From: Methylococcales bacterium
GTDB taxonomy: Bacteria > Pseudomonadota > Gammaproteobacteria > Methylococcales > Methylomonadaceae
Direction of reading: 5' to 3'
DNA length: 64,000 nucleotides
Assembly (NCBI GenBank): GCA_030693155.1
Contig: JAUYBJ010000057.1
Location: forward strand, 74,275-138,274
Shown: positions 10,357-48,560 of the stretch, piece after piece
Numbering within the stretch: the first letter of the stretch is position 1
Layout: each line of letters starts with the position of its first letter
Position numbers and translations under genes: made by a program
The notes under the pieces: model-generated
Database searches by the model: none
What the model was told of the DNA's origin: nothing
What the model saw: only the letters and a program-made list of their open reading frames with translations

Positions 10357-10373
10357 TTAAAATCTTCCAGTAA

Positions 10374-11049: not shown

Positions 11050-11051
11050 TG

Positions 11052-11300: not shown

Positions 11301-11373
11301 TATTCTTTATTAAGTTATACATTGTATAATTGTATTTTACAGGGAATAAAAGCCCCGTCAACATTTATATTAG

Positions 11374-12720: not shown

Positions 12721-12724
12721 ATTT

Positions 12725-14566: not shown

Positions 14567-14577
14567 AAAATACCTTT

Positions 14578-15273
14578 TTAATTTTCCCAACCAGTTACGT
14601 TAGATGGTGCGTTTTTTACATCATTTAAGTTAAATTTGTTCTTTGGATTTTTGGCCGTTTTATACACGGCACGACTTACTTGGACTGATCTATTACGCTG
14701 TTTTTCGGTTCCTACATTTAATTTTGGTACGACATAGGAACCAGCGGTAACAACCTTACTTACATAACCATTTTTAAAACCATTGGTAAAATTACCTGTG
14801 TTATAAGCACTTATGGCCGCGTACAAAGCCTCACGTCCTGGCCCATATTTTCTTTGAGCACTTTGATAAAAATCGACTAGAACCTTTGATGCACCAGATA
14901 GATTTTTACAGGGTTCAAAAGCATCGTACAAAGACATATTCAGCCTAGCTAAATTACGATTATTTAACTGACCCAAACCAATATCGATCACGTGACCATC
15001 TGCAATTAAACTATTAGAAATCTGGATAGCTTCCTCGACCGATGATGGATAATAGGTTTTATGTACCCTATCCTTTTTAGGAATATCCCAATCGCCGTTA
15101 TCACCAATAATCAAATAATTACCACGTGATTCATGACTAACGATTGCACCCATAGTTTGAGGGTGTACCTCTGGCGCACATGTAGATAATAAATCTTCAA
15201 TAGGATAAGAACTCTCATTAGCTAATAGTTGATTTGAGAAAAACAACAATCCAATAAATATTGATATTTTCAA
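14578..15273 (-). CDS. VirB1-like lytic transglycosylase
   Basis: Signal peptide, GAIVSHESRGNYLI, GLGQLNNRN, AISAYNTGNF. Confidence 0.85.
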   Translation of the reverse strand: MKISIFIGLLFFSNQLLANESSYPIEDLLSTCAPEVHPQTMGAIVSHESRGNYLIIGDNGDWDIPKKDRVHKTYYPSSVEEAIQISNSLIADGHVIDIGLGQLNNRNLARLNMSLYDAFEPCKNLSGASKVLVDFYQSAQRKYGPGREALYAAISAYNTGNFTNGFKNGYVSKVVTAGSYVVPKLNVGTEKQRNRSVQVSRAVYKTAKNPKNKFNLNDVKNAPSNVTGWEN

Positions 15274-15285
15274 AACAAATCCTTT

Positions 15286-16944
15286 TTAGATCTCTAAGGC
15301 TAATTGTTCTTTAACCTTTTCTTTAACTACGCCCTTGCCCTCACTGTAATTAACAACAGCTGAACGGCCAAGAGTAAGTTGTTTGTCTAAGTTGACTGAT
15401 TTATGTGCTATACCTACAGATTTGCCAATATCCTGAATAAAGTAGCCTTTCTCAACAGCCACAATTGAGCCAGAATAATTACCAGTATTTTCATTAGCCA
15501 TTTTAAGGATTGTAACCACCTCTTTACTGATGGTTAGCACTTCATCAGGCAGATCAACTGGAACAGACTCGCGCCTGGTACTTTTCCCTGAAAACACATT
15601 TAAAGTGTTACCAACCTCTTGGCCTAGGTCTTTAAATGGGGAGTAGACAACACTTTGCCCTAATACTTCATGTGCAATCGTATTGGATAAACCCTCTATA
15701 AGATGTTCTGGTACTTGCTTGATACGGGCATGCTCTGCAGCCGTAAGTTGACGTAATAAATCAGGATCATCAGGATGTTGAATTTTTGGATCTGTAGATC
15801 TTACCTTGGCATAGCCTTTGGTTAATGTACCAATATGTTCACTATCAGCATCAAAGACCTGCATTTTAAAATTTTTCCCTTCGGCAAGATCGCGCACCTG
15901 CTTATCTTTAAGACCTTGCATTTTGCTCCAACGTGGATCGTTCTGATCAATGTCATCTAAAACATCACCTAAACGCATTACTTTTACATCAGGGGCAATC
16001 AACTGCGAAAAATCAAACTCAATACCATGAGTTACGGCCACCATAACCCAACGATCTCTATTTTCGAGAGTGCCCCATTCCTTGCCATTTAAAATGCGCT
16101 CATGCGTGTTGTAACCCATGTCTTTAAGCTGATTGCGCAAAATATCTGCGCTTGCTGAATTAGCATAAGGAGGTACGTTTTCTAGGACTACGATCACTGG
16201 GTTAGTTTTACTTAAAATAACAAGAGCACTCACCACTAAATGCCCTACTTCGGGGTGCGCCTCTGGATGTACAAGGCCTCTTTTTGCCATACCTGCTTTT
16301 GATGCACCACTACATGGCAAACCCATAATTAGCACTTCGGTACGTGGAATATTTGCTAAACCTCGTTCATCAAATGCCAATTCCTGCATCGGTGCTGCAA
16401 AAGCCTTTGTAGTATCTGACCAAGCATCATTATGTATGGCTGCATGTTCTAATAACTCTTCTCTAATCTCATTTGCGAAAGCCAACTTACTTTCAATACC
16501 AGCCGCTTTAAGACCAGAATGAATTGCATGATCTAAAATTCCACCACCATGCGAAAGACTTCCTAACGCAATGCTTTCACCAGTTTCTAATTTATTTTTT
16601 AAACGTTTGTAACGCTCTTGTTTCTTTAATTCAGAAGCAAGTGGCACCAGATAGATTTGCCCTTCTTTCACCGCCACTCTAATTGAAGACATCCCATCAA
16701 AAATAGCCAATAATTCACGGCTATTTATATCGATGACAGGATTAAGTGATTCACCAGACTTTTTTGATGATACTACTCTGGATCCATCCTGATTAGCTTG
16801 CAACACAATAGTTTGACCTTCAACATGAATATCAAACCTTTGACCAGGTGCAAAGCCAGCTTTAGCCGTTTGTGAACCTTCTAACCATACGCGAGGTGCA
16901 CCCTTATTTTGACCAATCTTTTTTATATAATAACCATCAAGCAT
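15286..16944 (-). CDS. C5-cytosine DNA methyltransferase with C-terminal KfrB-like domain
   Basis: Catalytic MGLPCSGASKAG, VVLENVPPY; C-term YSGSIVAVEKGYFIQDIGKSVGIAHK...VNYSEGKGVV. Confidence 0.85.
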   Translation of the reverse strand: MLDGYYIKKIGQNKGAPRVWLEGSQTAKAGFAPGQRFDIHVEGQTIVLQANQDGSRVVSSKKSGESLNPVIDINSRELLAIFDGMSSIRVAVKEGQIYLVPLASELKKQERYKRLKNKLETGESIALGSLSHGGGILDHAIHSGLKAAGIESKLAFANEIREELLEHAAIHNDAWSDTTKAFAAPMQELAFDERGLANIPRTEVLIMGLPCSGASKAGMAKRGLVHPEAHPEVGHLVVSALVILSKTNPVIVVLENVPPYANSASADILRNQLKDMGYNTHERILNGKEWGTLENRDRWVMVAVTHGIEFDFSQLIAPDVKVMRLGDVLDDIDQNDPRWSKMQGLKDKQVRDLAEGKNFKMQVFDADSEHIGTLTKGYAKVRSTDPKIQHPDDPDLLRQLTAAEHARIKQVPEHLIEGLSNTIAHEVLGQSVVYSPFKDLGQEVGNTLNVFSGKSTRRESVPVDLPDEVLTISKEVVTILKMANENTGNYSGSIVAVEKGYFIQDIGKSVGIAHKSVNLDKQLTLGRSAVVNYSEGKGVVKEKVKEQLALEI

Positions 16945-16964
16945 TTTAATAATCCTATCGTCAA

Positions 16965-19424
16965 TTATTGACCAACTACTGAACCTAACTTACCGTCTGC
17001 ATCGTAAGCCACTAAATAATCCTGACCTACAGCTACAGGCGCAGTTAATCTAGCCTGGCGATGGATAACCGCATTGCCATATCCTGTATCTTGTACAACG
17101 TAACCGCTATCTATCAATACAATAACGCCGTAATTTTTGGATAATTTTTCAGCGTCTTGCAATTTGACTTCATAACCAAAGTTTTTAAGTGCTTTCTTAA
17201 TCACTTGTTTTTTACGCGCTGAAATAACAACAAACTCACCTGCATAACGAACATTCTTATATGCAGAGGAATCAATTAAACGTAGGCTTACAGAGAATTC
17301 GTCCTGTAGATCGATGTCGTCTGAATTTCGACTCTTTAATGAAAACTGATTTGTGATAGAGAATGGCCCTTTAGATTTAATAACTTGATCTTTATCTAAA
17401 AAGTCGTAAAGACTTTCTTTGGCCACCAATACACCATCAACAACACGCTCTTGTTTTATCAAAGCATATACAGGAGGCAATAACTCACGGTCTTTTAGAT
17501 TTAACCAGACCTTAAGAGTGCCAGAAGCGTCTTTTTCAACCAAAAGCATCGCCCAAACAAAAGCAGATCCTTGGTTGGATTCCATTTCAATAGAGCATCT
17601 AACTGGAGGTGCTATTTCTGCCCTTGATTGAAATACTGGCATTTCATAATAGCGAAGTTTCTTACCTTTAATAGGTGCAAATCCAGATGCTTTTAGGATT
17701 ACATCGGTGGGCGGTAATGATAAAAGTTCATCTGGTGTCATTAGTTCACGGCCAGCCATTTGTGTTGATAAACTTACTTGGCCAAGTGCATGCGTAGTTC
17801 TAGATCCAGAGTGATTACGTGTTTCATATTCGACGGTTTTTTTACCCAGCATTTCACTTAATGGTTTTGCTTCATCCATGGTGTTAGGTGCATACGCAAT
17901 TCTCAGATGACAGCCTGCAGATACAGACTCTTTATCTCCATAAGCTTCTTTGAGCTGCACCATGTCTTGAATAATCATTACTGCTTTAAGGCCATAGCCT
18001 GCGATATAAGCTAAACCATCTTGAAGTACATCAAGCTTACGCAATGAAGGCAATTCATCCATCATAAGCAGTAAACGATGTTTGTAACCTTCAATAGATT
18101 TGCCACCTTCAAATTTCATTTCTTCGGTTAATCTACGGATCACAAATGCAAAAAATAGGCGTGATAACGGACGTAAACGCTCTTTATCAGCAGGAGGCAC
18201 AATGTAATAACAAGAAACTGGTTGTGTTAGGTTCATTAGGTCACGAACCCTGAAATCAGATACTGCCACATTCATAGCAACAATAGGTTCTGTGAATAAA
18301 CCAAGTTTAGTGACTGCCGAAGAAATAACCGAGCCTAATTCCTTCTCTTCTTTTTTAAGCATTTCAGAAGCAACTAGCATAACCTCTGGGTGAGTTCTGG
18401 TAGGCCTGCCGCCTTCATCGCGCCAGCCCATTTTACCGTCTGGATCATGTTCATAACCCAACATAAAAGATAGCATTTGCTTTACGTCTTCAAATGAACT
18501 ATCAGCAATGAATTTAGCTGCTGCAGTTAAACTTCTGTCAGTAGAGCCGCCTGAATAAACTGTATGTAGGAATACACCAGTTAATAACTTGTAGCTAGTT
18601 GATACCCAGTGATCTTCCATGCCTTTTGCATCTGGATCCGCTACCATGGCAGCGATATTTTGTGCATCACGTACATCATCAAGCGTCCATACTCGTATTT
18701 CATCTAATGGATTCCACCTGGCCGCCGTACCATCTTTGCAAGTTGGATTAAAATTAAGAATTAGTTGTCCTGCTTTGTGACGGAAACCTGCGGTAAGTGC
18801 AAAGTTTTCCATTTTGACATCGTGAACCAATGTTGAAAAACGCCAGCTCAATAATGTTGGGAGTACCACACCTACACCCTTACCTGATCTTGTCGGTGCA
18901 GCCATTAATACATGTGTTTTTTGATCATCACGCAAAATAATACGTATTACACGACCAAATAACCTTCCTGCCAGTGTTTTATCTTGAATATCAACAGAGC
19001 CAACACAAACACCATCTTTAGATATAAGGCCAGTATCACGGATCTCTTTATCGGTTGCCCAATGTGCGGAGCCATGTAAATTATCTGGTGTACCTTTATT
19101 ACGTGTACGTAAATAATTAATAAAAGCACATAGCAGTATAGATAGAGCTATACCGCCATTAAAGACATACATGCCTTGTGAAAGAACTTCATCAATAATG
19201 CCCTTCTCTTCTGACCATCTAAATGTCCAGGTAAGCCATGACCAAGGTTCATATATTGAAACACCAAAGAACGAAAATAAAGGCACCCCAAGGGCGGATT
19301 GATAGCTAAAATTAGAAGCTTCATATTGCGTTGCTACCCAAGAGGATAAAAGCAAACAAATAATAAATAGGGCTATTACCCACCACGCGATTGAATCGGA
19401 ATTTCTTTTTTTGTCATCGGCCAT
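16965..19424 (-). CDS. Type IV coupling protein (VirD4/TraG) with extra C-terminal KfrB-like extension
   Basis: Walker A MAAPTRSGKGVGVVLPTLLSW, LLMMDELPSL; C-term YGVIVLIDSGYVVQDTGYGNAVIHRQARLTAPVAVGQDYLVAYDADGK. Confidence 0.92.
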   Translation of the reverse strand: MADDKKRNSDSIAWWVIALFIICLLLSSWVATQYEASNFSYQSALGVPLFSFFGVSIYEPWSWLTWTFRWSEEKGIIDEVLSQGMYVFNGGIALSILLCAFINYLRTRNKGTPDNLHGSAHWATDKEIRDTGLISKDGVCVGSVDIQDKTLAGRLFGRVIRIILRDDQKTHVLMAAPTRSGKGVGVVLPTLLSWRFSTLVHDVKMENFALTAGFRHKAGQLILNFNPTCKDGTAARWNPLDEIRVWTLDDVRDAQNIAAMVADPDAKGMEDHWVSTSYKLLTGVFLHTVYSGGSTDRSLTAAAKFIADSSFEDVKQMLSFMLGYEHDPDGKMGWRDEGGRPTRTHPEVMLVASEMLKKEEKELGSVISSAVTKLGLFTEPIVAMNVAVSDFRVRDLMNLTQPVSCYYIVPPADKERLRPLSRLFFAFVIRRLTEEMKFEGGKSIEGYKHRLLLMMDELPSLRKLDVLQDGLAYIAGYGLKAVMIIQDMVQLKEAYGDKESVSAGCHLRIAYAPNTMDEAKPLSEMLGKKTVEYETRNHSGSRTTHALGQVSLSTQMAGRELMTPDELLSLPPTDVILKASGFAPIKGKKLRYYEMPVFQSRAEIAPPVRCSIEMESNQGSAFVWAMLLVEKDASGTLKVWLNLKDRELLPPVYALIKQERVVDGVLVAKESLYDFLDKDQVIKSKGPFSITNQFSLKSRNSDDIDLQDEFSVSLRLIDSSAYKNVRYAGEFVVISARKKQVIKKALKNFGYEVKLQDAEKLSKNYGVIVLIDSGYVVQDTGYGNAVIHRQARLTAPVAVGQDYLVAYDADGKLGSVVGQ

Positions 19425-19456
19425 TCAATATACCTATATGTTCATTAAATATCTAA

Positions 19457-19816
19457 TTACCAATTAGAAAGACCGTTTTTTGTGGTTTCACGAATAACAG
19501 TTTTGACCTGATCGGATAATGGTGATTTATTAAGATAAAATACATCACATGCAGCAATACTTCTTAAACAATCACCATATTTTGGATCATCAAAGTTTTC
19601 ACGGAAAGAATTCTCATTGTGATCACCCAGATGCACCAGTATTGTTTCATGACCTCTTAAAAATCTGACTGTATCAACAATATTAAGCTCAATATCTTTT
19701 GATATTTGTGAGCGTTCGTATGTCAATCTTTTTTCCAGATTTGCATTATTAGTCATTAACCTACTAATAATGCTGTCTTTCTCTATTAACAATTGCCTTA
19801 AATCCTTATTGGTCAT
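19457..19816 (-). CDS. Hypothetical protein, 119 aa
   Basis: ORF in operon context. Confidence 0.5.
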   Translation of the reverse strand: MTNKDLRQLLIEKDSIISRLMTNNANLEKRLTYERSQISKDIELNIVDTVRFLRGHETILVHLGDHNENSFRENFDDPKYGDCLRSIAACDVFYLNKSPLSDQVKTVIRETTKNGLSNW

Positions 19817-19892
19817 TCTTGCCCCTCAATTAAGATGAAATGCAATTGTACAATAAATAATTATATATTTAATAATTTATTTTAATTAAAAC

Positions 19893-21968
19893 TTATAATG
19901 CAATCTCTTTAGTGCGTTCGTTTAAAAGATTAAGTTGGTCTTTTACAACCTTAAGCCCTTCTGTTTTATAAAGGTCATTAAAATCAGTGCCTGAATAATC
20001 ACTCGCCCTAAACTTAGGGAAAATAGCTCTGCCACCTACGGCTTCTGCTGCTTCCAGCGCTTTATTCCTACCAGCATTAGGTAATGCACCTTCATTCACT
20101 AGTGGATTACTATGAACATATTTACCTTCACTAGACCAAGCGACCGTACATTTGATAAAGCGATCATCATCACCACCGATAATGATTTCAGAAGCTTTAC
20201 CAGCTTCCTTAATTGCTTTAGCTACCTCTAATAGATTTGTAGAATCAAATGCAACAGCTACTGTTAAGCCTGTAGCTATATGCGCAGTAGCACCAGTTGC
20301 GTAGCCTTCCATTACCATGACAGGCTTATTAGAATCGAATTCTCCAATCAAATGAAAACATCCTGTTTTACGACCACCAGATTTATATTTCTTTTGCCCA
20401 TCTTCTGTAATGGATTGATATGACCAAATTTTATTGTTGATGTCTCGTAAAGGGATCACAACCAAAGACTTATCTGCAAAATCCACATCATGCTTCAAAC
20501 CTAATGCAGGAATGCCTTTATCAGTTAAGTATTTATGTGGAAAGTATTCATCCATATCTGGGCATTTGCCAATATAGTGTTTTGAATAAGCCGCAACTCG
20601 TTCTTTTTCTTTTAAATCCTCTGCATCACGCTTGGCAGCATTTTCTTTGGCTTGTTTTTCAAGATCATTGACTCTGGCAACATCGATACCTACTGTCTGG
20701 AATTTCCAGCCACGTGAACGAGTATCATCATACATATTTTTAATGTAACCATTAGGTATGGCATCTAAAGAACCTTTATAGGATCCTTGAAGCTCTTTTT
20801 TGCGGCCACCTTCTACAGGAACATAATGCCATTTACCATCCATTACAGGTTCGCCATCTAAAATAAGACCTGCATCACGGATAGCGGCCTCAAATTCTCT
20901 AACGGCATCATAATCACCTCTAGGATTTTCCCATTTAGAGAATGTACGAACATCAGCACCAGAAGGTACAAACCAAGATTTATTATCAGAATCCCATTTA
21001 GCACCTAATGCTTTAGCCTCACCTCGTTCTGCGAACGGCACATGTAGATAAATTTTGCTTTTAGCCACACTTTCCTCCTTAAGTATTTCTGTTTCCACTT
21101 CTAATGTTTTTTGTAATGCCAGATCCATCACATGCGTAACAATCTTTTCAGCATCACGTGCTGCTTTGAAAATTTCGTGCTTATCTTCTTTCAAAGCTTT
21201 GATCCAACTTCCTACATAGGAAGCGTGTTGCTCAAATTCAAATGGAATACCCAACCGATCTGATAAAAACAAACTGGCTAATTCAGCCCGTAATTCCTCT
21301 TTGGCATATTCAGGGGTGCCAAATCGACCGTCTAGTGAACGATTTAAACGAGATTCATGGCCTGTCCAATGTCCAAGTTCATGTAAAGCCGTTGCATAAT
21401 ATTTTGGAGCATCTGCAAATGCTGATTTTAATGGTAGATGAATTTCATCATGAGTTGGTGAATAGAAAGCTCTATTAGACTGGTCATGGAAAATCCGTGC
21501 TTGTGATTTAATTAATGCATTCTCAGCAAGCTCTAATGGATCCCATTCAGGAATAGCTTTTGCAAGCTCAGGTGTATTTTCCATTTGGCTTAAATTAAAA
21601 ACCTTTGCATAGAATACAGAGGGACGCGCCTTATCAAGAGCAACTTCAACTTCCTGTCCTGATTCTTCGTTGATTCCTTTGGTACTATCAGCCCATTTCC
21701 AATATTCAATCCAAGTAGCTTTTTCACCCTTACGTATTTTCCAGCCATTGTCATTGGCTTGATTAAACGTACACCAGCGGTTGTCTTCATAACCTTGACT
21801 TAATAAATGCAAGGCATTACCACCTCTATAAGCTTTGCCTGTAGTGGGATTAACAGGTGAAAAACCACCAACGGATCCATCCCAAGGTTTTTGCCATGGC
21901 GCGGTGCCTGCTTCTAAAGCGGCAATGATTTTATCCGTCAGGTCTTGCCTAAAATCATGATCAGCCAT
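19893..21968 (-). CDS. ArdC-like antirestriction protein fused to DUF5710-like and Toprim domains
   Basis: ArdC N-term IIAALEAGTAPWQKPW, zincin ALHELGHWTGHESRLNR, KIYLHVPFAERGEAKALGAKWDSDNKSWFVP, Toprim PVMVMEGYATGATAHIATG...IIGGDDD. Confidence 0.9.
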   Translation of the reverse strand: MADHDFRQDLTDKIIAALEAGTAPWQKPWDGSVGGFSPVNPTTGKAYRGGNALHLLSQGYEDNRWCTFNQANDNGWKIRKGEKATWIEYWKWADSTKGINEESGQEVEVALDKARPSVFYAKVFNLSQMENTPELAKAIPEWDPLELAENALIKSQARIFHDQSNRAFYSPTHDEIHLPLKSAFADAPKYYATALHELGHWTGHESRLNRSLDGRFGTPEYAKEELRAELASLFLSDRLGIPFEFEQHASYVGSWIKALKEDKHEIFKAARDAEKIVTHVMDLALQKTLEVETEILKEESVAKSKIYLHVPFAERGEAKALGAKWDSDNKSWFVPSGADVRTFSKWENPRGDYDAVREFEAAIRDAGLILDGEPVMDGKWHYVPVEGGRKKELQGSYKGSLDAIPNGYIKNMYDDTRSRGWKFQTVGIDVARVNDLEKQAKENAAKRDAEDLKEKERVAAYSKHYIGKCPDMDEYFPHKYLTDKGIPALGLKHDVDFADKSLVVIPLRDINNKIWSYQSITEDGQKKYKSGGRKTGCFHLIGEFDSNKPVMVMEGYATGATAHIATGLTVAVAFDSTNLLEVAKAIKEAGKASEIIIGGDDDRFIKCTVAWSSEGKYVHSNPLVNEGALPNAGRNKALEAAEAVGGRAIFPKFRASDYSGTDFNDLYKTEGLKVVKDQLNLLNERTKEIAL

Positions 21969-22125
21969 TTTTCTCACCTTTGCTATCATCTGCACCAGTG
22001 TAATCACTTAACAATTCTGTTTCTGGTACTTCTTGTTCGTTAGCTTCACTACCTGAAATTGCAATATCAAAAACAGCCAAGTCCGCTGTATTGTTTTTAT
22101 TATCTTGCGTTTTGTTTGAGTTCAT
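21961..22125 (-). CDS. 54-aa acidic small ORF bridging the methylase-helicase and ArdC-like genes
   Basis: Hand translation MNSNKTQDNKNNTADLAVFDIAISGSEANEQEVPETELLSDYTGADDSKGEKNG*; stop overlaps ardC ATG (ATGGCTGA) and start overlaps end of the 1952-aa ORF; below ORF-track length cutoff. Confidence 0.5.
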   Translation of the reverse strand: MNSNKTQDNKNNTADLAVFDIAISGSEANEQEVPETELLSDYTGADDSKGEKNG

Positions 22126-25100
22126 TTTTAATATCCTGTTTGATGATGTTAGCCTGGTTGTTTTTGTAACGTACTTCCATTAAATCACCTACTGGAGGGT
22201 GATTATCTAAAATATTTATATCATGCAATACAATATAACGTTTACCAATATTTTGCACTATGTGATAGTCGGTTTTTTCTAAAATAGTGCCTCTATAATA
22301 CCCAAATTGAGTATCTACAGGCATTACATCCCGTCCATTTGTATTAGCTAAGATACGTGAGCGATCTTGACTTACTAGATCACCAAATATCATTTGTTCA
22401 ACTGGCGCTTCAATATGCGGATCAGCAGCTGCTTTTTGTGGCTCTTCGGGTACGTCTTGTGAACGTGGTTTCCATTTTGAAATATAATTATCATCATTCT
22501 GTACTTTCTTTAACTCAGACAAAACATCACCACAATCCATACGTAATATTTCTAGTTTCTTAAGTTGAGTAAAGGGCTTGGACTTTTCAACCATAGCCTT
22601 ATCAAGCTCTTCTAAATCGGTTACAAGTTTTGCCTGATTAGCCAGTATCTTCTCTTCAAAACTATTTACATAATTATTAAGGCGGTTGATAAATCCATTT
22701 AAGCTGAATTCATCCTCTTTATGATATTCAAGATTGCGAGGGCTATATAAATCTTCGCCCTTAATGACAAACTGCAAAGAATCTCTTTCACCATAAACAG
22801 CTATATCGAATCCACGAAATTTACCTACTGAATATGTTTCAGGATTTTTCTCTCCTACTTTAGCTTTATTTTGTAAAGCGAGTTTCATTACGGCCATAAT
22901 TTCAGGGAGTAACTCTTTTTTAGTTTTTTCACCATATTTCTTGCCGCCTAATTCGTAACTAAAATGTTCACTAGGTTGTGCATCGCGCCTGGCTATTTCT
23001 GCATTAAGTTTCTGTAAAATAGCACTAGACCTCTGTTCAGCATTGGATAGCCAATCAATACGGCTGTCTAATGTGTGATGTGCCCGTTTATAGCTTGAAT
23101 ATACAGCTTCAAGTTTTTTCAAATCTGCATTTAATTTAACCTGCATGAAAATTAACGGATTACCTGTAGCTGCAGCTTTCATTTCGGCAGCATTGGCCGC
23201 TTCACTGGAAATATCTTCAATCACACGTTGTAAAGCATCGCCCTTACGGAATTGTTCGATACCAGCAGCTTTAACTTCAATAGTTTGCCACATACGACCA
23301 TCATAGGTTTTCTCAGTAGCATATCGTAATAGCTCCACTTCAAAGCCTTCTGGATCCTCTTCGTAGAATTCATTACCTTGTCTGATTATGCGGCCTTCGC
23401 GTTGTTCAAGATCTGACGGCCTCCATGGTGCGTCTAAATGATGCTCTGCAACCAGTTTTCTTTGAACATTAGTGCCAGCTCCCATCTTTTCAGTAGAACC
23501 CAACAAAATGCGTACAACACCTCTATTCATTTCATCGAATAATTTACTTTTCTGCAAATCTGTTTTTGCGTCATGAATAAAACGTATTTGATGTGGTGGT
23601 ATTCCTCTTGCAACCAGTTTGTCACGAATATCTTCATAGACACTGAACTTACTGTTTGCAGACAGCAATTCATCCATTGAAACAGTATCAACATCTTCAA
23701 TTTCATCGCTTGCAGCAGGAATAATTTCTGGTACCACAAATGCTGTTTTTTGGCTGCTTGCTTTAGGTGTAGACAAATCACAAAAGATTAACTGAGTGCC
23801 CTTACGTGCATCCCAACGTGCATATATATTATGTGCTCGATGAACAAGCTCATTAAGCTTAGAACCTTCGTGGTCTTCGGCATCAGGATCTATCAAACGA
23901 TAATCGAGACCAGCTTTACGCGCTTCATTGGTTATTTTTAATGGATTGTCGATACTTGGATCATCAGGTAGATTTTCCATACGATCAATAATAGAGCCTG
24001 CAGTCCATTTTTTAACAATAGTGCCATCTGCACGTGTAACTGGCATACCATCATCATCAAGAACAGGGGTTTGCACACCCATAAATAACGCCTGATCCTG
24101 AGATCTGGGCACAATAATATTTTCAGGTTTACCACCTTTGATTTTAGGCGTAGGAAATGGCTTACCTATTTCTAAACCTTGACGTTCTAAATCTGAACGT
24201 GTGATGACATCAGCAAAGCTTCGATAAAGTGCTGTGAGTTCTGGTACGTTCTGAAATTTTGCAAAACGTGAATTTAGTCTGTAATTAACCCCAGTAGCAT
24301 CAAGTTCCCAACCTGTTACCACTTTGCCGAATGTTGAAGCCCATGCATCAAAATGAACAATACCTCTACGTTTCATTTCATCATATTGCATATAGCGCTG
24401 CACGGTATAAAGCTCTGCAATGGTATTGGAAATAGGAGTACCTGTACCAAAAAATAAACCACGGCCATCATGCTTCATTTGCAGGTATCGAGCTTTAATA
24501 AACAGATCAAAAGCTTTTTCTGAGCCTTCTAAATTGCCAAGGCCTGCGACTCTGTTCATCGATGTTGTGATGTACAAGTTTTTGAATTGTTGAGATTCAT
24601 CCAAAAATATTGCATCAACACCTAAATCTGCAAAACTAACGACCGCATCTTTTGAGCCTGTATCAGCAGCTCGTGCTAATCTTGCCTCCATACGATCTCT
24701 TGTTTTTTCTAATTCTTTGATAGAAAAGTGTTGGCCATTGTTTCCCTTTAGCTCTGAAATAGCCATTGTTAAATCATCGATCTGTTCATCAAGAATGATT
24801 TTCAAAGTTTCATTAGGAACGCCGATTTTCTTAAAACTGGAATGCGCAACAATAACTGCATCCCAGTCACCTGTAGCAATACGACCAAATAAACGTTGAC
24901 GGTTTTCTTTACTAAAATCAGACTTTTCAGCAATTAAAATATTAGCACTAGGATAAAGCTCATAAAAAGCATCTTTCCATTGTAATAAAAGATGATTAGG
25001 CACAACAAACATAGGCTTTTTCATTAAGCCCATACGCTTGCTTTCAATACCAGTAGCAATAAACTCGTAAGTCTTACCTGCACCTACAACATGATCAAAT

Positions 25101-27958: not shown

Positions 27959-27994
27959 GTCTCATCCCGATTGTTATTATATTTTTTTATTTAA

Positions 27995-29086
27995 TTAACG
28001 TTCAAAACTATTGGTTTTTTGATTATTTATTTCGGTAACTTTAGCGGTTTTACCTTGATAAAGAATGTCTAACTTAGCACCTTCCTTTACCTCACCAACA
28101 CGCGATTTCTCATGAATAACAAAAGTTTTCCTACCAATATCCTGAACAACATGACTATCAAAAACTTGCGCAACACGTCCAGAAAAGTTACGTGTTTCAT
28201 TGGTTTTATCAGGATATGCAATGCCAGCGTCACGTTCTAACGCATAATTTTCAGCAGCTTGGCGTGATGCTATGAGCTGTTCCTGTTCAGCAGCATTCAG
28301 CACAGGTGTTTTAACTAAATGATATTCAGCCAAGCGTTGTTTGTCTTTCTCATTCGGCTCGTAACCTTTGACAGTCAGACCTTTGATTGAAGCTTGATAC
28401 CACGCTTCGGCTTTAAATTTATCTGTACCATTCACCTGAATGCCAACCCAGCCTTTAGATTCGGCCAATTCGATAGCAGCTTTGAACGTCTCTAAATCTT
28501 TGTTAATCACTTTTAGCTTCATACCTTCATCGATTAAAGCAGGCTTATCACTATCGATACGATAAAAAGCATTAGGCTCACGTTCAACATATAAGCCATT
28601 GAGTAATTGACGATTAGGTTCACTCTTTTTTAACGCCGCTACTGCACCATCTGTTTCTAAAATTGGTTCAATACTACCTTCCAACTCTGCACCAGTTATT
28701 TGCGGAGCACTGGTAATTGATTTTTGGTATTCAACCAGTTCATTGAATGCTTTATTTGATAAACCAGTTTCTTGAACTAGATCTTTTCTGTCGCGTACTA
28801 TGCGCAACAGTTCATAAGTGCCTAGATGGGTAATATCAAAATAAGACTCGATATTTGGGAACAAAACATCCACTGCATTTTTAAGTCTTAGATCAGAAAA
28901 TTTTGATAGGTGATCATCTTCAAAATAAAAAGCAAGCGGCTCATTATCCTTAAAACTTTCTATATATCGATATGCGCCTATCTCAGCAGGACTTAGATGC
29001 ACCAATTCTTTTAAATCAATTTGGCCGTTGTCACTAGAATCAACAATGCCAGTTATTGTATTTTCATCTGTTTGCATAATATTCAC
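27995..29086 (-). CDS. Polyvalent-type protein with LPD7-like and KfrB-like domains
   Basis: AIELAESKGWVGIQVNGTDKFKAEAWYQASIKGLTVKGYEPNEKDKQRL; C-term FSGRVAQVFDSHVVQDIGRKTFVIHEKSR. Confidence 0.75.
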   Translation of the reverse strand: MNIMQTDENTITGIVDSSDNGQIDLKELVHLSPAEIGAYRYIESFKDNEPLAFYFEDDHLSKFSDLRLKNAVDVLFPNIESYFDITHLGTYELLRIVRDRKDLVQETGLSNKAFNELVEYQKSITSAPQITGAELEGSIEPILETDGAVAALKKSEPNRQLLNGLYVEREPNAFYRIDSDKPALIDEGMKLKVINKDLETFKAAIELAESKGWVGIQVNGTDKFKAEAWYQASIKGLTVKGYEPNEKDKQRLAEYHLVKTPVLNAAEQEQLIASRQAAENYALERDAGIAYPDKTNETRNFSGRVAQVFDSHVVQDIGRKTFVIHEKSRVGEVKEGAKLDILYQGKTAKVTEINNQKTNSFER

Positions 29087-29156
29087 CTTATTAAATAATT
29101 AATGTACTAAAGAACTGCTATTTGATTTTATGACATCATTTTCAATATCACTGTTT

Positions 29157-31808
29157 TTAAATGGTTAATGATTTATCTGTCGATCTATCAATATTGATAG
29201 GCACAGCCCTTTTATTCTCATATTTGATTGAATATTTACCCCCTCTTTTAATGCTTTTGGATAAATCTCGTTTGTCATGTGCTATATGGACATTTTTACC
29301 AATATTTTGTACAACATGAACGGGAGTGATTTGTGATACAGAACCTCGATAGAATCCTCCGTCACGATCTGCTAAAGCAACTTCATTGGCACTGTAAACA
29401 TCTATAGAAGTAAGACTTTCTAAAGTTTTACTATATTGTGGAGGATCAGTTAACAAGCGGCCTGCATCCAGTATTAATCCTTGTAACTCAAAATTGCTAA
29501 ATGGAATATCCAGACCAATCGATCTTACAAAACTAGCGGCTTTTGCATAAACAGATTTAATCAGTGATAATTCAATATCTAGATCACCGTTTATATCTAA
29601 ACAATGCTCTACGGCCAATGCAATTAATTCTTTTGCTTTTGTTTCAACAGAAGCATTGGGATATTTATCTTCTACTTCCTGTAATAGCTCATTTAATTTG
29701 CTACCTTCTTTTTGTGCAGCAGCCATGACCTTGAATAAAAATTCACCAAATTCGCGTTCTGACTCGAAAAGATTAGCAAAGGCTATATGTCCTATTGCTT
29801 CGTGACCGATCGCAAGCTGTACGTCCTTTAAATCATAGACATTAGAAGTAACCAGGTAAATTTTGTCATCATAAGCAGCTGCTTGTGTATGAGCTGGGGC
29901 AATAAATGGTAAATCATCAGTGCTATGGATTAAAACAACATTTGGTAAACCTGGCCACATTTCCTGAATGCGTACAATTTCATTTTGAATATCAGAATCA
30001 CTTAGCATTAATTGTTCTGATTTATTTCTATCCTGCAGTCTAAAAAGGGGTAAACCTTTTAAAATAGTCTTCTGCATTTCTGGGGTAATGTTGAAGGCAA
30101 CTTGAGTATTTTGTTTTTCTGTTTCACCATAGTAATAAAAATCATGATTTAGAAAAAAATCCTCAAAATCTTCTACATCAGATAACTCGACCATCAACTC
30201 ATCGTCATCATCTGAAAAGTAAAAAACTTCTTTGCCTTCATCGAAGCGCTTTTTTGCATCCATATCAGAAAGCTTAATAGTTTCTGACACGTCTAATGTA
30301 ATTGTAGATAATTCACCACCTACTTTTTTGAGTAAATCTTTCGTAACTTTAGGAATAATAAAATTGTAAAAAGTAAGCATGCCTTCACCGCCTACACGCA
30401 AATCTACACCAGTGTAGCTTTTACCATTTTCGTGACCACTTACATCTTTACCTGATTCATTTATTATTTTTTCAGCAAGTTCTTTACCTATCGAATTTGC
30501 TAACTGTTCATTGGTAAGATTTTCTTGCTCTAAAACTGCTGTACCTTTATTCCACGCATCAATATTAAAAGTACCATCATTATTTTTGAATGCACGTACC
30601 TCTTCAATTTGCTTAGTCAAATCATAAAGGTCTACTGCTTGTTGACCGTTAATAAAAGCAACCGTATGAAAATTATTTTCAGCTGCATAATGCATCATAC
30701 GTTTAACAGCCAAAGACACCCATGCATCTGTTTTAGTAACAAAAGGTGCATTAGGGACTGTGCCAGCGTTTTTTACTTTTTCTAAAAGGGTAGCACCTAC
30801 GCCTTTCTCTTTTAGTTTTGTGTGTAATTCACGCTCTTCTGGAGTTAGATCCCTTTGGTAAGTAAAACCATTCAGGCGTTGAAGCTCCTTTTCGTCAGCA
30901 GTTAGATTGTTAGGTTTAAATCCCTTCTTTCTGCCCTCTTGCCCCCAATCCGATTGAATTTCATTGATAAACAAAATGCGTTTACCATGGGGATCAATAT
31001 GTTCATTAAAACGAATATGCGCAAGTATGTTTGCTTGTTCGAAATGGCCCATTCTGAATAATGGAGCACCACCATCAAGAGAAGTGAAATCTAGACTACC
31101 ATTGTTGTGATCAGCAATTTTTTTAAATGAATTTAATTCGGATCTGGTTAAACCACTAAATTCTACATACTCTTTATGAATACCGTCATCGACTCGACCA
31201 TAATCCAAATTTTCATAGCCTTGAATGCTTAAATCAGTTAGAAAACCATCTACATCATCTGGGTGCTTGAAAGTAACACGACCTTCCTGAGAGTTGCTTT
31301 GCGCATCAGGCAGGATAAGTAATAATTCTTTATAGTTATTACCGCCAGGTACGGTATATTTCTCATACTTGGTGTCTGATTCGATTTGGCCAGTAATATT
31401 CTGATAAGCAATATCTAAATCTTCTGGAAGTAACTCTGTATCAACAAGTTCGCCATTCTTATCATACAGGTATACATCATCATCCATGCCACGATCAAAT
31501 GTGTAGCCTGCATCATTAAGCTTTTGCATATTTAAAGATAAATGATCGAGTCCATAATGAACTTCACTAATCTTAACGCCATTATCTTTTAGATAAGCCA
31601 GTACCGATTCTTTTGAAACTAAATCAGGTTGCAATTCTAACCAAGTATTAAGACCAGACCATTCAAGCTCTTGTGCTTTAAATAACAGACCCTCACGCGA
31701 TTTCGCATTTAACCAATCTTTGATGACAGATTGTTTCACTGAGTTATTTTTATTTGTTGGCAATGATTGTTCAATTGCCAGTTCTAATGCGCTGTACCAG
31801 GTACTCAT
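29157..31808 (-). CDS. Large polyvalent protein (phage/conjugative type) with KfrB-like C-terminus
   Basis: ILFINEIQSDWGQEGRKKGF and DAWVSLAVKRMMHYAAENNFHTVAFINGQQAVDLYDL are signatures of phage/conjugative polyvalent proteins; C-term FYRGSVSQITPVHVVQNIGKNVHIAHDKRD. Confidence 0.75.
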   Translation of the reverse strand: MSTWYSALELAIEQSLPTNKNNSVKQSVIKDWLNAKSREGLLFKAQELEWSGLNTWLELQPDLVSKESVLAYLKDNGVKISEVHYGLDHLSLNMQKLNDAGYTFDRGMDDDVYLYDKNGELVDTELLPEDLDIAYQNITGQIESDTKYEKYTVPGGNNYKELLLILPDAQSNSQEGRVTFKHPDDVDGFLTDLSIQGYENLDYGRVDDGIHKEYVEFSGLTRSELNSFKKIADHNNGSLDFTSLDGGAPLFRMGHFEQANILAHIRFNEHIDPHGKRILFINEIQSDWGQEGRKKGFKPNNLTADEKELQRLNGFTYQRDLTPEERELHTKLKEKGVGATLLEKVKNAGTVPNAPFVTKTDAWVSLAVKRMMHYAAENNFHTVAFINGQQAVDLYDLTKQIEEVRAFKNNDGTFNIDAWNKGTAVLEQENLTNEQLANSIGKELAEKIINESGKDVSGHENGKSYTGVDLRVGGEGMLTFYNFIIPKVTKDLLKKVGGELSTITLDVSETIKLSDMDAKKRFDEGKEVFYFSDDDDELMVELSDVEDFEDFFLNHDFYYYGETEKQNTQVAFNITPEMQKTILKGLPLFRLQDRNKSEQLMLSDSDIQNEIVRIQEMWPGLPNVVLIHSTDDLPFIAPAHTQAAAYDDKIYLVTSNVYDLKDVQLAIGHEAIGHIAFANLFESEREFGEFLFKVMAAAQKEGSKLNELLQEVEDKYPNASVETKAKELIALAVEHCLDINGDLDIELSLIKSVYAKAASFVRSIGLDIPFSNFELQGLILDAGRLLTDPPQYSKTLESLTSIDVYSANEVALADRDGGFYRGSVSQITPVHVVQNIGKNVHIAHDKRDLSKSIKRGGKYSIKYENKRAVPINIDRSTDKSLTI

Positions 31809-31842
31809 AATATTCCCGTAACTCTGTAGATATGATTTTTAA

Positions 31843-33222
31843 TTAGCGTTCAGCACCATGGCCTTGAGCACGTTGTGAAATATCCACTTTTGCTCGATAG
31901 CTTTCATACTTAACACTTAACTTATCACCTACTGCAGGAAGTTTATCTAAAATACGTTTATCGTGAATTACCGCAGTATGCTGACCAATATTTTGAATCA
32001 CATGATGGGTAGTTTCACCTACTACAGTACCTACATAGGAACTCTTTTCAATATTTGCAGAAATTGCTTTTAGTCCCACATAATCAACAAAATCATGTGC
32101 ATCTAATAAAGAACGTTGACCATTACGATCCTTGGACAAATTCTTTTCTTTTTCCAAGCTGTAAGCCTGCTTAATGTGAGTTTCTTTAATACCCATGCTG
32201 GCACCATGCTCGACCATAGAATCAGCACTACCGAATAAAGCCGTATATTGAGTATTATTCTCAACATAATTAACCGCTATACAGCGAGACGTTTCATCAA
32301 TATATACATCAGAAACAACATTTCTAATATGCGTTTCAATTGGCTCAATGATTTTAGGTGTAGCTGCTCTTACATCCATTGCTTGAGCTACAAATGATTT
32401 ATCTAAACCTTCGGCCTCTTGGAATTTTGCAATTGAGTTAATACTGTTGAAAAGAATTTTTTCTTTAACAACACCATCAGCATTAGTTAAATTAACTGCC
32501 AAATCATTAGTTTCATTATCAATGTAAGGCTCAGAGATAGTTAATTCCTTGCGGTTAATAACTTGGCCTTGGCCACGATAATATGAAACCATGACATCTT
32601 GACCAACAGCAGGCAAATTCATCAATCTACGATTTTCATGAGTCACTACTTCCCCAGCATGAGTAGCCTGAACCGTAAAATCTTTATTCTGGGCAAGAAT
32701 CTTTCCCACAGACACCACATCAGGTGTTCGATCACTAATTGGTGAACCATGAATTGCTTCTGCTTGTTCAATCGCTGGACGTAACCCAAGTGACATTTGT
32801 TGCTGTTGATTTATTTCATTCAAAATCCATGGATGAGTTAAGCCAGCTGATAGCAGTTCGTAATCTCTAATAATGTCATCTGAAAGAGGAATAATTGCAC
32901 CTGTTGGGGAACGGCTTTGTGAAGTTTCCAAAACAGTTGACATCCATGCACCACGTATTGATACAAGCTCGGCTACTTTAAGGTTATCTCTTAATGAGGT
33001 TGGATTAAGCCATAACTTTTCAGTTAAGGCATGCAGCATAATGTCCTTAAATTCATGTTCTTGATGTTGTAAAGGCAATTTAGAAGCCACGGGGCCATTT
33101 AGGTATACAGAATAAGTAACGACCTCTTGATCATTGCCTAACCTAGGCCAACGATTAATTGCACCAGAAGCTCTTACCGCATCAGCAAAATCTGCAAATT
33201 TCATTAAATCTTTAACGTCCAT
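31843..33222 (-). CDS. Unknown protein with two KfrB-like domains (internal and C-terminal)
   Basis: Internal VGKILAQNKDFTVQATHAGEVVTHENRRLMNLPAVGQDVMVSYYRGQGQV; C-term YVGTVVGETTHHVIQNIGQHTAVIHDKRILDKLPAVGDKLSVKYE. Confidence 0.7.
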   Translation of the reverse strand: MDVKDLMKFADFADAVRASGAINRWPRLGNDQEVVTYSVYLNGPVASKLPLQHQEHEFKDIMLHALTEKLWLNPTSLRDNLKVAELVSIRGAWMSTVLETSQSRSPTGAIIPLSDDIIRDYELLSAGLTHPWILNEINQQQQMSLGLRPAIEQAEAIHGSPISDRTPDVVSVGKILAQNKDFTVQATHAGEVVTHENRRLMNLPAVGQDVMVSYYRGQGQVINRKELTISEPYIDNETNDLAVNLTNADGVVKEKILFNSINSIAKFQEAEGLDKSFVAQAMDVRAATPKIIEPIETHIRNVVSDVYIDETSRCIAVNYVENNTQYTALFGSADSMVEHGASMGIKETHIKQAYSLEKEKNLSKDRNGQRSLLDAHDFVDYVGLKAISANIEKSSYVGTVVGETTHHVIQNIGQHTAVIHDKRILDKLPAVGDKLSVKYESYRAKVDISQRAQGHGAER

Positions 33223-33248
33223 TTTAATACTCCTAAATAATTAATTTA

Positions 33249-33914
33249 CTAACGCGCTATAGCGAGTTGGTTTTTGTGTTCTTGGTTAACCTGGATATTT
33301 ACTCGACCGTTTTCATATTTGAAATTTGCTTTTTGACCAACATATGGTTCATTACTGAGTAAAAGCCTGTCATGAACTACCATGGTGTTTTGACCAATAT
33401 TTTGCAATGCAAAATACTTACTAACATCAATAACCGTTCCGTAATATGAGGAACTTTGGATATTGGTATGCTCTATCTTTTTATTCCAGTCCCTATGCTT
33501 AATGGTTAGTTTTTTTAGATCTTCCACCTTATGTATAAAATCAGGTGCTTTAATAAAGTCTTTATGCATACCGATTGCATCAGCCATTAAGACTATATTT
33601 GCAACATCAAGTAACGCATGGGGTACATATTTTTGAACATCACGATGATAAGCAAGTTTTGCAATAGTTGGATCATTGATAATATTCTGTTCTAACAGTT
33701 TAAATACAACATCACCATCACCCATTTCCCACAGGCTATCATGAGCTCTTGTCGCTAATGGATTAACAATATCACCAAAGAATTCACCTTTTTCTCTGCG
33801 AATACCATTTTTAGCCATTTCTTGCCAATGCTCAATAACAGTTTTTGCGCGGCTCTTAGCGCCTTTTGTTACTTCACCACGTGTTGTATCACCAAACAGA
33901 TCCATTAAAATCAC
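33249..33914 (-). CDS. Unknown protein with C-terminal KfrB-like domain
   Basis: C-term YYGTVIDVSKYFALQNIGQNTMVVHDRLLLSNEPYVGQKANFKYENGR. Confidence 0.7.
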   Translation of the reverse strand: MILMDLFGDTTRGEVTKGAKSRAKTVIEHWQEMAKNGIRREKGEFFGDIVNPLATRAHDSLWEMGDGDVVFKLLEQNIINDPTIAKLAYHRDVQKYVPHALLDVANIVLMADAIGMHKDFIKAPDFIHKVEDLKKLTIKHRDWNKKIEHTNIQSSSYYGTVIDVSKYFALQNIGQNTMVVHDRLLLSNEPYVGQKANFKYENGRVNIQVNQEHKNQLAIAR

Positions 33915-33946
33915 CTTTATGTGTTTTATTTCCTATATAAGAAATA

Positions 33947-33969
33947 AATAGGGGCTAATAGCCCCTATT
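33947..33969 (-). terminator. Hairpin between two operon genes
   Basis: AATAGGGGC-TAATA-GCCCCTATT, 9-bp perfect stem followed on the minus strand by TATTTCTTATA. Confidence 0.65.
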
Positions 33970-33973
33970 CCCA

Positions 33974-35038
33974 CTAACGTTCCATACCAATGCTTTTGTC
34001 TTTTTCTTGTTTACGATCCTGAACTGCACCACGACCTTTTTCATAGGTAATCTTAAGATTTTGACCTTCTTTCACTGGTTGATCTAAAGCACTTTTGCGA
34101 TGCAACTTAAATTCATTTTGACCACCATGTTGCAATACATATCGCTCACTCACATCAATTACATTACCATAATGGGCTAAACCATCTTTTGTGAATGCAT
34201 CACGAACTTTTGCCCCATCCAGTTTTTGTTCAGCAACTAATCCTAATGTATAGCGTTCATTTAAGTCAGAGCTAAATTCTTTACGCATGTCAGATACAGC
34301 TTTAATTACAAATTCTTTATGCGTTAAAGGAACTTCCCAGGCACCAGCATCTTTATTAAATTCCACGTCAGCAATACGTTGCAAACGATGTTGAATATCT
34401 GGATTGTAATCAAAAGATACTTGGTATTTATCACCAGCTTGTACTACTTTGATACCATCAACACTATTACCTAAAGCAGCATCAAAGTCTTTAGCGATCT
34501 CATCTGCGGATTTAACTTGACGACGATCAAACACTTCACCAATACCATTATTATTGTATTTAATCCGTACATCATCGCCTTTATATACAGGCTCACTCAA
34601 ATCAGCAACACGGTGGATTGAAACAAATGCAGCGCCATTATCTTTACCAAAACCAGTTAATTGCGCAGCATAGCGCCCATTTACATTTAGAATCTCACCA
34701 GAATGATTACCGCCTTCTTTATGAAAATCACTAATTTGGGCAGAAATACCTGCTTCTGTACCATAGTCTTTCATACGGTCACTTGCAGAAGCTTTAGCAA
34801 GCTCCATAATTGATTCACGGTCTTTGGCAATTGCCTTAACGTCAAAATGCATAGTTTCGATAACTTTATCAAGCGCCTCTTCACTGTCTTTTGGAATAAT
34901 CCAAGACTCGGCATCTTTATCAAACTTTGCGCCAGGCACCTTATTAATTTTATTAACAAGTTCCCGATCATATGGAAATTTAACCGCAAAACCACTATCT
35001 AAAACTTCTACATTCACTTCATTTTGTTCAGCCATCAC
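33974..35038 (-). CDS. Protein with two HARP-like motifs and two KfrB-like domains
   Basis: VKFPYDRELVNKINKVPGAKFDKDAESWIIP and VSFDYNPDIQHRLQRIADVEFNKDAGAWEVP; KfrB-like SGEILNVNGRYAAQ... and C-term HYGNVIDVSERYVLQHGGQNEFKLHRKS. Confidence 0.65.
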   Translation of the reverse strand: MMAEQNEVNVEVLDSGFAVKFPYDRELVNKINKVPGAKFDKDAESWIIPKDSEEALDKVIETMHFDVKAIAKDRESIMELAKASASDRMKDYGTEAGISAQISDFHKEGGNHSGEILNVNGRYAAQLTGFGKDNGAAFVSIHRVADLSEPVYKGDDVRIKYNNNGIGEVFDRRQVKSADEIAKDFDAALGNSVDGIKVVQAGDKYQVSFDYNPDIQHRLQRIADVEFNKDAGAWEVPLTHKEFVIKAVSDMRKEFSSDLNERYTLGLVAEQKLDGAKVRDAFTKDGLAHYGNVIDVSERYVLQHGGQNEFKLHRKSALDQPVKEGQNLKITYEKGRGAVQDRKQEKDKSIGMER

Positions 35039-35071
35039 ATTCTCCTAATATAAAAAAAGATAAAATAAATA

Positions 35072-35344
35072 TTACATTGCACTGCTTAAAGCAAGCTCTC
35101 TCATTGATACTAACTTAATTGAAACAGCTTCTATTGACACCACTTCGTCAATAACTGGGAGGCCATGATCAGCTCCAAAAATTTTCTTTACATCATTGGA
35201 TGGAATAACTCGGCCAAACTTACCTTGTAACTCTTTCTTGAAAAGATTCTTAATATCTTCTAACACCGCTGGATTAGCGCCTTGGCATGACGCATTATTA
35301 AATTCTGCTACATTCATAACTGATTTCATAAAAAATCCTTTCAA
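35072..35344 (-). CDS. Hypothetical small protein
   Basis: ORF in operon; likely start at internal MKSVMNV. Confidence 0.45.
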   Translation of the reverse strand: MKGFFMKSVMNVAEFNNASCQGANPAVLEDIKNLFKKELQGKFGRVIPSNDVKKIFGADHGLPVIDEVVSIEAVSIKLVSMRELALSSAM

Positions 35345-35373
35345 GATTTAGTTAGTACGACAAATTTAAAAAA

Positions 35374-35877
35374 CTACCTTCCACCACGCTCTTTTTCTAA
35401 CATCCTTAGTTTTGTTTCAGCAAAACCATTTTTATAATGGAATTCAACACTAGTACCAACTGCAGGCGATCTATCGATTTTACTTAACTCATGTACCATC
35501 ACCTCTTCATGCCCCAAATCCTGAACTAGATGATAATCAGTTTTTAATAAGACCTTTCCAATTGATTGACCGTTATCTGGTGCATTTCTTACTAAGATAT
35601 TATCCCCTTGCAAATCACGTACAGCTTTTACTGCTTCCGCACGACTTATTGCCAATACATTTTCTGTATTTGGTAAAGCCAAGTTAGCAACTTTATTCGT
35701 TTTATTCTCACGCTCAAGCACAGTTAGTACACGCGACAACTGCGAAGGAACAATACCTGTTTCCTGACATACATTAACCTGGCGCATTCCTTCAACTAAA
35801 ACCATATGTGCCGCTTTCCTGCTTTTTGCACTTAAACGTGTTTTATTTACTATCTGGTTGAATTCGTCTTCGTTCAT
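35374..35877 (-). CDS. TrfB/KorA-like HTH regulator fused to KfrB-like domain
   Basis: AAHMVLVEGMRQVNVCQETGIVPSQLSRVLTVLER (TrfB-type HTH); C-term IGKVLLKTDYHLVQDLGHEEVMVHELSK. Confidence 0.75.
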   Translation of the reverse strand: MNEDEFNQIVNKTRLSAKSRKAAHMVLVEGMRQVNVCQETGIVPSQLSRVLTVLERENKTNKVANLALPNTENVLAISRAEAVKAVRDLQGDNILVRNAPDNGQSIGKVLLKTDYHLVQDLGHEEVMVHELSKIDRSPAVGTSVEFHYKNGFAETKLRMLEKERGGR

Positions 35878-48552: not shown

Positions 48553-48560
48553 AAGTTATC

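Follow-up and report, generated by a model that had tools for sequence, protein, structure and literature searches.

The KfrB domain on contig C52

We analyzed a 64,000-nucleotide stretch of DNA (the window) from a Methylococcales bacterium (assembly GCA_030693155.1), which corresponds to positions 74275-138274 of the 144,515-base contig JAUYBJ010000057.1 (here C52) and which carries a block of genes whose products end in KfrB, a small domain shared with a protein of IncP-1 plasmids. Searching with the Pfam profile PF18790 (KfrB Domain; curated cut-off, 25 bits) located 13 copies in this genome, all on C52, with 11 of them inside the window in nine proteins; the same search found no KfrB copy in the remainder of the 3.7 Mb genome. 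Eleven otherwise unrelated C52 proteins, a DNA-transfer enzyme among them, share a C-terminal KfrB module followed by a short end. The carriers and their domains are as follows, in window coordinates unless C52 is named.

15286-16944, minus strand: C5-cytosine methyltransferase with C-terminal KfrB and tail KEKVKEQLALEI (PF00145, 82 bits; PF18790, 41.6 bits)
15319-15480, minus strand: KfrB domain of the methyltransferase (46 bits)
16965-19424, minus strand: TraG/VirD4-type coupling protein with C-terminal KfrB and a tail of merely 7 aa (PF02534, 315 bits; PF18790, 44.5 bits)
16983-17135, minus strand: KfrB domain of the coupling protein (48.6 bits)
22100-27958, minus strand: adenine methylase-helicase polyvalent protein with C-terminal KfrB, tail ...KQNAR (Eco57I, ResIII and Helicase_C; KfrB, 49.4 bits)
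22145-22297, minus strand: KfrB domain of the methylase-helicase (55.9 bits)
27995-29086, minus strand: LPD7 protein with C-terminal KfrB, tail ...NSFER (LPD7, 62 bits; KfrB, 38.2 bits)
28031-28186, minus strand: KfrB domain of the LPD7 protein (41.9 bits)
29157-31808, minus strand: 883-aa polyvalent protein with C-terminal KfrB (42.9 bits)
29202-29351, minus strand: KfrB domain of the 883-aa protein (48.2 bits)
31843-33222, minus strand: 459-aa protein of unknown function with internal and terminal KfrB, tail ...GAER (KfrB, 95.9 bits over two stretches)
31882-32040, minus strand: terminal KfrB of the 31843 protein, the copy modelled with AlphaFold2 (62.4 bits; mean predicted local distance difference test score [pLDDT], 89)
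32557-32709, minus strand: internal KfrB of the 31843 protein (47.9 bits)
33249-33914, minus strand: 221-aa protein with C-terminal KfrB, tail ...LAIAR (KfrB, 52.8 bits)
33291-33449, minus strand: KfrB domain of the 33249 protein (55.4 bits)
33974-35038, minus strand: 354-aa protein with internal and terminal KfrB, tail ...IGMER (KfrB, 85.3 bits over two stretches)
34019-34174, minus strand: terminal KfrB of the 33974 protein (58.7 bits)
34532-34708, minus strand: internal KfrB of the 33974 protein (37.6 bits)
35374-35877, minus strand: TrfB/KorA-type repressor fused to KfrB, tail ...KERGGR (KORA, 29.7 bits; KfrB, 48.6 bits)
35413-35562, minus strand: KfrB domain of the KorA-type protein (50.6 bits)
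C52:7811-10390, outside the window: TraI/MobP (MOBP) relaxase with C-terminal KfrB
C52:10971-11780, outside the window: DUF6036 nucleotidyltransferase with C-terminal KfrB

An earlier reading made from the letters of the window alone (the sequence-only reading) had placed a KfrB-like module on nine proteins, with internal copies in the open reading frames (ORFs) at 31843 and 33974. All nine carriers were located as claimed, with whole-protein PF18790 scores of 38-96 bits, every one above the Pfam cut-off, and both internal copies were present. The protein at 35374, listed there simply as a carrier, could be identified more sharply as a TrfB/KorA-type repressor fused to KfrB; a similar fusion was matched on nine plasmids. 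Scored separately, the 11 window copies reached 37.6-62.4 bits, all above the cut-off. Their common descent, for which a check by hidden Markov model (HMM) had been proposed, was borne out: leave-one-out HMMs built from the 13 copies on C52 recovered each held-out copy at 36.6-64.4 bits, compared to 6.4 bits for the next-best C52 ORF, and a chance motif was therefore rejected. Terminal copies on C52 stop 12-15 residues short of the C-terminus, with the coupling protein (7 residues) as the exception. Since KfrB is absent within the window from the ArdC-like protein (19893-22007), the transglycosylase, the topoisomerase, ParA/ParB and the structural genes of the type IV secretion system (T4SS), the tag is selective.

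Barrel and tail of the KfrB module

A structure model built with AlphaFold2 on the 11 window copies only predicted a five-stranded all-beta barrel of ~50 residues, with pLDDT values of 95-97 in the core and a disordered tail. The model superposed, with weak E-values, on many oligonucleotide/oligosaccharide-binding (OB) folds, including those of S1, NusA, RNase II and RsgA. It also superposed on a chain of the gonococcal zeta_1 toxin (PDB 6EPG/6EPH/6EPI; TMq, 0.69) in which the KfrB profile matched residues 330-396 of 401 (E = 2.7e-4), and because both profile and model match this chain, the solved zeta_1 structures offer an experimental view of the KfrB domain. A further superposition was obtained with a domain of BepA/Bep1 (TMq, ~0.6; root-mean-square deviation, 1.7-2.1), which we take to be the OB region adjoining FIC and not the BID domain. 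By these model comparisons, KfrB is an OB-like barrel. Both zeta toxins encoded on the gonococcal plasmid (NZ_CP020416.2, 23845-25053 and 25279-26484) carry a KfrB-like domain and a basic, arginine-ended tail (KKTMKR and KKSISR) like that of the plasmid's own KfrB (KKTLTR), although the carrier here is the toxin of a toxin-antitoxin system.

To describe the tail, we used 84 copies in 72 proteins from 15 plasmids or contigs, the plasmids having been picked by coupling-protein similarity and thus not forming a random sample. The last copy lay within 25 aa of the C-terminus in 71 of the 72 carriers, and outside the coupling proteins the tails were 11-22 residues long, with one of 48. Arginine was the last residue in 56 of 67 carriers other than coupling proteins (84%), compared to 92 of 819 other ORFs of ≥150 aa from the same plasmids (11%; p = 4e-37), and when families were collapsed, 18 of 22 non-coupling-protein families were mostly arginine-ended. 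All six arginine codons and all three stop codons are in use at these ends, indicating that the terminal amino acid itself is selected; a nucleotide-level origin through overlapping start codons was rejected on the same evidence. Entropy at position -1 was 0.97 bits vs. 2.8-3.7 bits at positions -2 to -12, and position -3 was enriched for L, I or V. Exceptions to the arginine end were mostly whole families with L/I-x-L/I or similar endings. The mean charge of the last 20 residues was +2.1 in carriers vs. +0.8. Twenty of 28 carriers not used for motif discovery were also arginine-ended, a count that leaves aside coupling proteins, a duplicate and a weak internal match and to which a Burkholderia plasmid similar to one of the original set contributed some carriers. 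All seven KfrB-bearing coupling proteins end at the barrel or no more than 7 residues beyond it. The tag is thus bipartite, consisting of an OB-like barrel and a short, disordered, mostly arginine-ended tail, and it is this tail signature, absent from the sequence-only reading, that is new here.

We also compared the endings of proteins that lack KfrB. Relaxases of this kind from IncP-like plasmids were arginine-ended in eight of nine cases, in contrast to only 3 of 71 T4SS structural proteins and 2 of 21 ParA/ParB proteins. TraI and KfrB of a Methylophaga IncP plasmid end SLKRSRGRSR and VKLSRGRSR; those of R751 end SIKTSKGRSR and KLTRGRSM, the R751 KfrB tail having the same placement and closing with RGRSM where KfrB of related IncP plasmids has RGRSR. 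KfrB-free primase-like proteins end similarly (...SSGVGR and ...ASSGLQR), and a DUF5710 protein of the gonococcal plasmid, primase-like by position only, ends ...ASRGSR. On RA3, which has no KfrB, KfrC, the relaxase, the ArdC-like protein and the LPD7 protein (3620-4759, 10360-11355, 11394-13088 and 13227-16292) all end in -ER, but the coupling protein does not, and there is one other arginine ending among 33 genes. RA3 KfrC is known to bind VirD4, the coupling protein, through its C-terminal portion (PMC8124265). Presumed cargo and the transfer machine differ in how they end, and the occurrence of this terminal mark may extend beyond KfrB.

Relatives, history and neighboring genes

The closest relative is pMsip01 of Methylovorus glucosotrophus SIP3-4 (NC_012970.1), a conjugative plasmid typed MOBP, MPF_T that has 13 KfrB copies, a coupling protein matching its C52 counterpart at 78% identity across the full length, a conserved gene order around the tagged block and most of the tagged proteins in common. 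It differs from C52 in being without the 883-aa tagged protein and a detectable KfrA and in having an extra tagged protein of 357 aa. Plasmids of Burkholderia, Paraburkholderia and Cupriavidus aligned at ~37-43% through the tagged end and had 5-9 copies, and those of C. metallidurans and Acidovorax carolinensis had 11 each (10 each if only copies above the cut-off are counted, since one relaxase copy falls below it), with relaxases bearing diverged copies of 22-28 bits. Tagged relaxases were present in four relatives (pMsip01 and those designated Bmul, Cbas and Pspr). KfrB of the IncP-1 plasmid R751 is the same domain by HMM (63 bits); classical IncP-1 plasmids have a single free-standing KfrB (115-156 aa in the four examined), in contrast to the eleven tagged proteins of C52. 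KfrB was absent from RA3, an IncC plasmid, a Pasteurella plasmid and two rhizobial plasmids.

KfrB is rare, occurring in 5 of 299 genomes sampled across the phylum and 8 of 369 from the class, the window's own included. The sequence-only reading had suggested checking whether matches cluster with T4SS and KfrA genes. Of the nine other KfrB genomes of these samples, six have a coupling-protein gene no more than 20 kb away on the same contig; two of the remaining three assemblies were too fragmented and one gave a weak 25-bit match with no coupling-protein gene nearby, so that linkage held in six of seven resolvable genomes. Clustering was therefore supported for coupling-protein genes and not supported for KfrA, as five multi-copy plasmids lack a KfrA_N match. 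In other searches, a genome scan with the coupling protein as query found no relative, an alignment of the methyltransferase found one locus (Cupriavidus campinensis) in genomes and none in viral contigs, PHROGs gave 0 matches for the 11 copies, and tblastn of one 57-aa copy against phages returned nothing, an uninformative result given that the same query found only two plasmids.

For 11 of the 13 C52 copies, the nearest neighbor is the copy on the orthologous pMsip01 protein, from which we conclude that the tags are old and co-inherited; overall, 70 of 84 copies have their nearest neighbor on another plasmid. The domain is better conserved than the preceding linker in 7 of 10 C52/pMsip01 ortholog pairs, and the tails have drifted (14-62% identity) with mostly the same ending kept. 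The 883-aa protein, for which no counterpart was seen in pMsip01, carries a tag whose nearest relatives are on the product of the next gene, the 31843 protein, and on the pMsip01 ortholog of that product, which suggests from sequence comparison that a new protein may have captured a resident tag.

The following untagged genes of the window bear on the tagged block.

8778-9734, plus strand: KfrA-like protein (KfrA_N, 48.2 bits)
19893-22007, minus strand: ArdC-like protein, ends ...KEIAL (ArdcN and MPTase-PolyVal, no KfrB)
44060-53751, minus strand: Trb-type T4SS genes, the presumptive channel (Pfam matches include TrbI at 44060 and a VirB4-type ATPase at 49571)

The Trb-type block has orthologs on pMsip01, R751 and others. 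Together with the MOBP TraI relaxase, the TraG coupling protein and the KorA/ParAB region, it makes up the IncP-related MOBP/MPF_T features of C52, and domains of polyvalent proteins (LPD7, ArdcN, MPTase-PolyVal and Eco57I/helicase) are found in this T4SS context. C52 is either a plasmid or an integrated element; no terminal repeat was found at its ends.

Several further genes were noted. A phage-type integrase gene lies at 7446-8636 (minus strand), and a bactofilin gene stands beside the tagged block at 37673-38131 (minus strand), in the same place as on pMsip01. DUF5710 is common to a HerA-like ATPase (39011-40507, minus strand) and the ArdC-like protein (19893-22007, minus strand), and in relatives it recurs beside KfrB proteins and within primase-like proteins. 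An AAA ATPase and subtilase pair at 370-3727 (plus strand) matches the PADLOC defense models IetA/IetS (280 and 165 bits). The pilus/type II-like cluster at 54209-63936 (plus strand), with secretin, T2SSE ATPase and T2SSF, is also conserved on pMsip01 and on Burkholderia and Acidovorax plasmids and looks like a conjugation-associated type IV pilus. Metal-resistance cargo (C52:25334-60544 and window 4069-5775) comprises RND efflux, P-type ATPases and a mercuric-reductase-like protein with an HMA domain.

KfrB as a candidate tag for conjugation cargo

We favor the reading, at a probability of roughly 0.58, that KfrB is a portable, bipartite C-terminal tag through which proteins are recruited to, and translocated by, the plasmid's own IncP-related T4SS. 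That the tag exists and is selective is shown by the data above, whereas its binding to the coupling protein, the export and the docking are what we infer. The barrel would present the short unstructured tail, usually ending in arginine and sometimes in L/I-x-L/I, and the last residue would be read by the TraG/VirD4-type coupling protein or an associated part. Because it has no tail, the coupling protein's own copy is set apart from cargo and resembles either a partner for docking or a leftover; as a partner, this tail-less barrel would help to dock tagged proteins. These would then be handed to the T4SS and delivered with the DNA or independently of it, and in the recipient they would shield the incoming plasmid and help it become established. 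The proposed cargo includes the relaxase, two DNA methyltransferases, the KorA-type repressor, LPD7 and other polyvalent proteins and the nucleotidyltransferase-like protein, a set that would suit the recipient's first minutes, with methyltransferases acting against restriction and the repressor controlling early expression.

The sequence-only reading had proposed a general tag for proteins destined for the T4SS or for a KfrA scaffold. Its T4SS half is supported by the tagged relaxase, as a relaxase is an obligatory T4SS substrate, by the arginine tail common to KfrB-free relaxases, by linkage to coupling-protein genes in unrelated genomes and by recurrence of the tag on orthologs of sister plasmids. 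Its other half, in which KfrB would bind a KfrA (KfrC) filament and thereby place tagged proteins at the segregating plasmid for partition or scaffolding, is now highly improbable. The domain does take its name from the kfrA-kfrB-kfrC operon of IncP-1 (PMC7783346), and a KfrA-like gene lies in the window at 8778-9734. However, no KfrA_N match, although a strongly diverged KfrA could be missed, was found on five plasmids with 5-13 KfrB copies, namely pMsip01 (13), those of B. multivorans (9), C. metallidurans (11) and A. carolinensis (11) and pYSCONJ (5), and RA3 has KfrA and KfrC yet no KfrB domain.

Known T4SS signals offer parallels. Positively charged signals are established, as is the precedent of a BID domain with a basic tail: in Bartonella Beps and some rhizobial relaxases, BID is likewise a small domain with such a tail, sometimes in multiple copies, and XVIPCD, bound by VirD4, is likewise a modular C-terminal domain on diverse X-T4SS effectors (PMC10025392). 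KfrB shares with domains of this kind the modular C-terminal position, the arginine/basic tail and the presence on a relaxase. It differs from XVIPCD in length (~50 vs. ~120 residues), in its tail (arginine-ended vs. glutamine-rich) and in its carriers (conjugation and establishment proteins vs. antibacterial toxins). The BID domain is helical, whereas KfrB is modelled as an all-beta barrel, and no sequence relation between the two was found. Agrobacterium VirB/D4 effectors have a basic C-terminus in which arginine is important for transport (PMC10025392), but no folded KfrB domain.

Two alternatives compete most strongly with this reading, namely donor-side docking with no export and a DNA tether. 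If KfrB served only for assembly in the donor cell, in the relaxosome or in regulation, its presence on the KorA-type repressor and on the coupling protein itself would be readily understood; the methyltransferases, LPD7 and the other polyvalent proteins nevertheless fit delivery better (as proposed in PMC5512222), and the carriers end as relaxases do, which are exported proteins, so we regard a purely donor-side role as rather unlikely. We consider it decidedly unlikely that KfrB is a nucleic-acid-binding OB domain that keeps enzymes on the plasmid's DNA, or on its single strand in transfer, with the arginine tail contributing no more than positive charge. The likeness to the OB folds of S1, NusA, RNase II and RsgA, the many carriers that act on DNA (relaxase, methyltransferases and KorA) and the mildly positive charge of the barrels would all agree with a tether, yet the gonococcal zeta toxins bear KfrB without being DNA enzymes, and neither the strict C-terminal position with its single conserved last residue nor the identical ending on KfrB-free relaxases would be expected. 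Hardly credible, finally, is a sticky C-terminal module without function that spread by recombination among neighboring genes. Carriers are adjacent in one operon-like block and the tag of the 883-aa protein is nearest to that of the neighboring gene and its ortholog, but most copies, as described above, are closest to the copy on the ortholog encoded by another plasmid, conservation of the domain exceeds that of the linker in 7 of 10 C52/pMsip01 pairs, and the terminal arginine is retained while the tail drifts.

Several observations weigh against a cargo tag. The OB fold is also common for nucleic-acid binding, and the tail statistics come from the non-random set of plasmids described above. 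The methyltransferase and nucleotidyltransferase families are L/I-ended and not arginine-ended, two KfrB-free coupling proteins (Diaphorobacter and pYSCONJ) are arginine-ended, and relaxases of KfrB-free Pasteurella, Mesorhizobium and Agrobacterium plasmids end KK, GLGL and GLSI. Between the C-terminus of IncP TraI and KfrB, hhalign detected no homology (probability, 1.6%), and the idea that this C-terminus is a diverged KfrB is accordingly not supported. Two-hybrid assays with RA3 proteins showed no interaction of the relaxase with VirD4, and TraG was not bound by IncP KfrC (PMC8124265).

A broader version is possible, though doubtful: KfrB with its arginine tail may be the general cargo tag of IncP-related conjugation, with free-standing KfrB as the minimal form, the coupling-protein copy as the matching dock, and sets of ~10 proteins (the repressor, methyltransferases, polyvalent proteins and, elsewhere, toxin-antitoxin toxins) exported. 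If so, cargo could be read from sequence by its last residue.

The KfrB domain itself and C-terminal T4SS domains with basic tails (BID, XVIPCD and the VirF type; PMC10025392) were already known. No paper was found for the phrase 'KfrB domain' in a library of 5.4 million papers that omits most subscription journals, nor was any function of the domain or description of it as a repeated tag found in that literature, and Kfr is not mentioned in the polyvalent-protein survey PMC5512222. If the cargo-tag reading is true, it would give KfrB a function, provide a sequence rule that predicts the proteins delivered by a whole plasmid lineage and supply a portable tag for conjugative protein delivery. 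It would fit the finding that recipients acquire at least 16 proteins encoded by an F-family plasmid from the donor (PMC11288057), and the suggested entry of polyvalent proteins into recipient cells (PMC5512222) would become directly testable.

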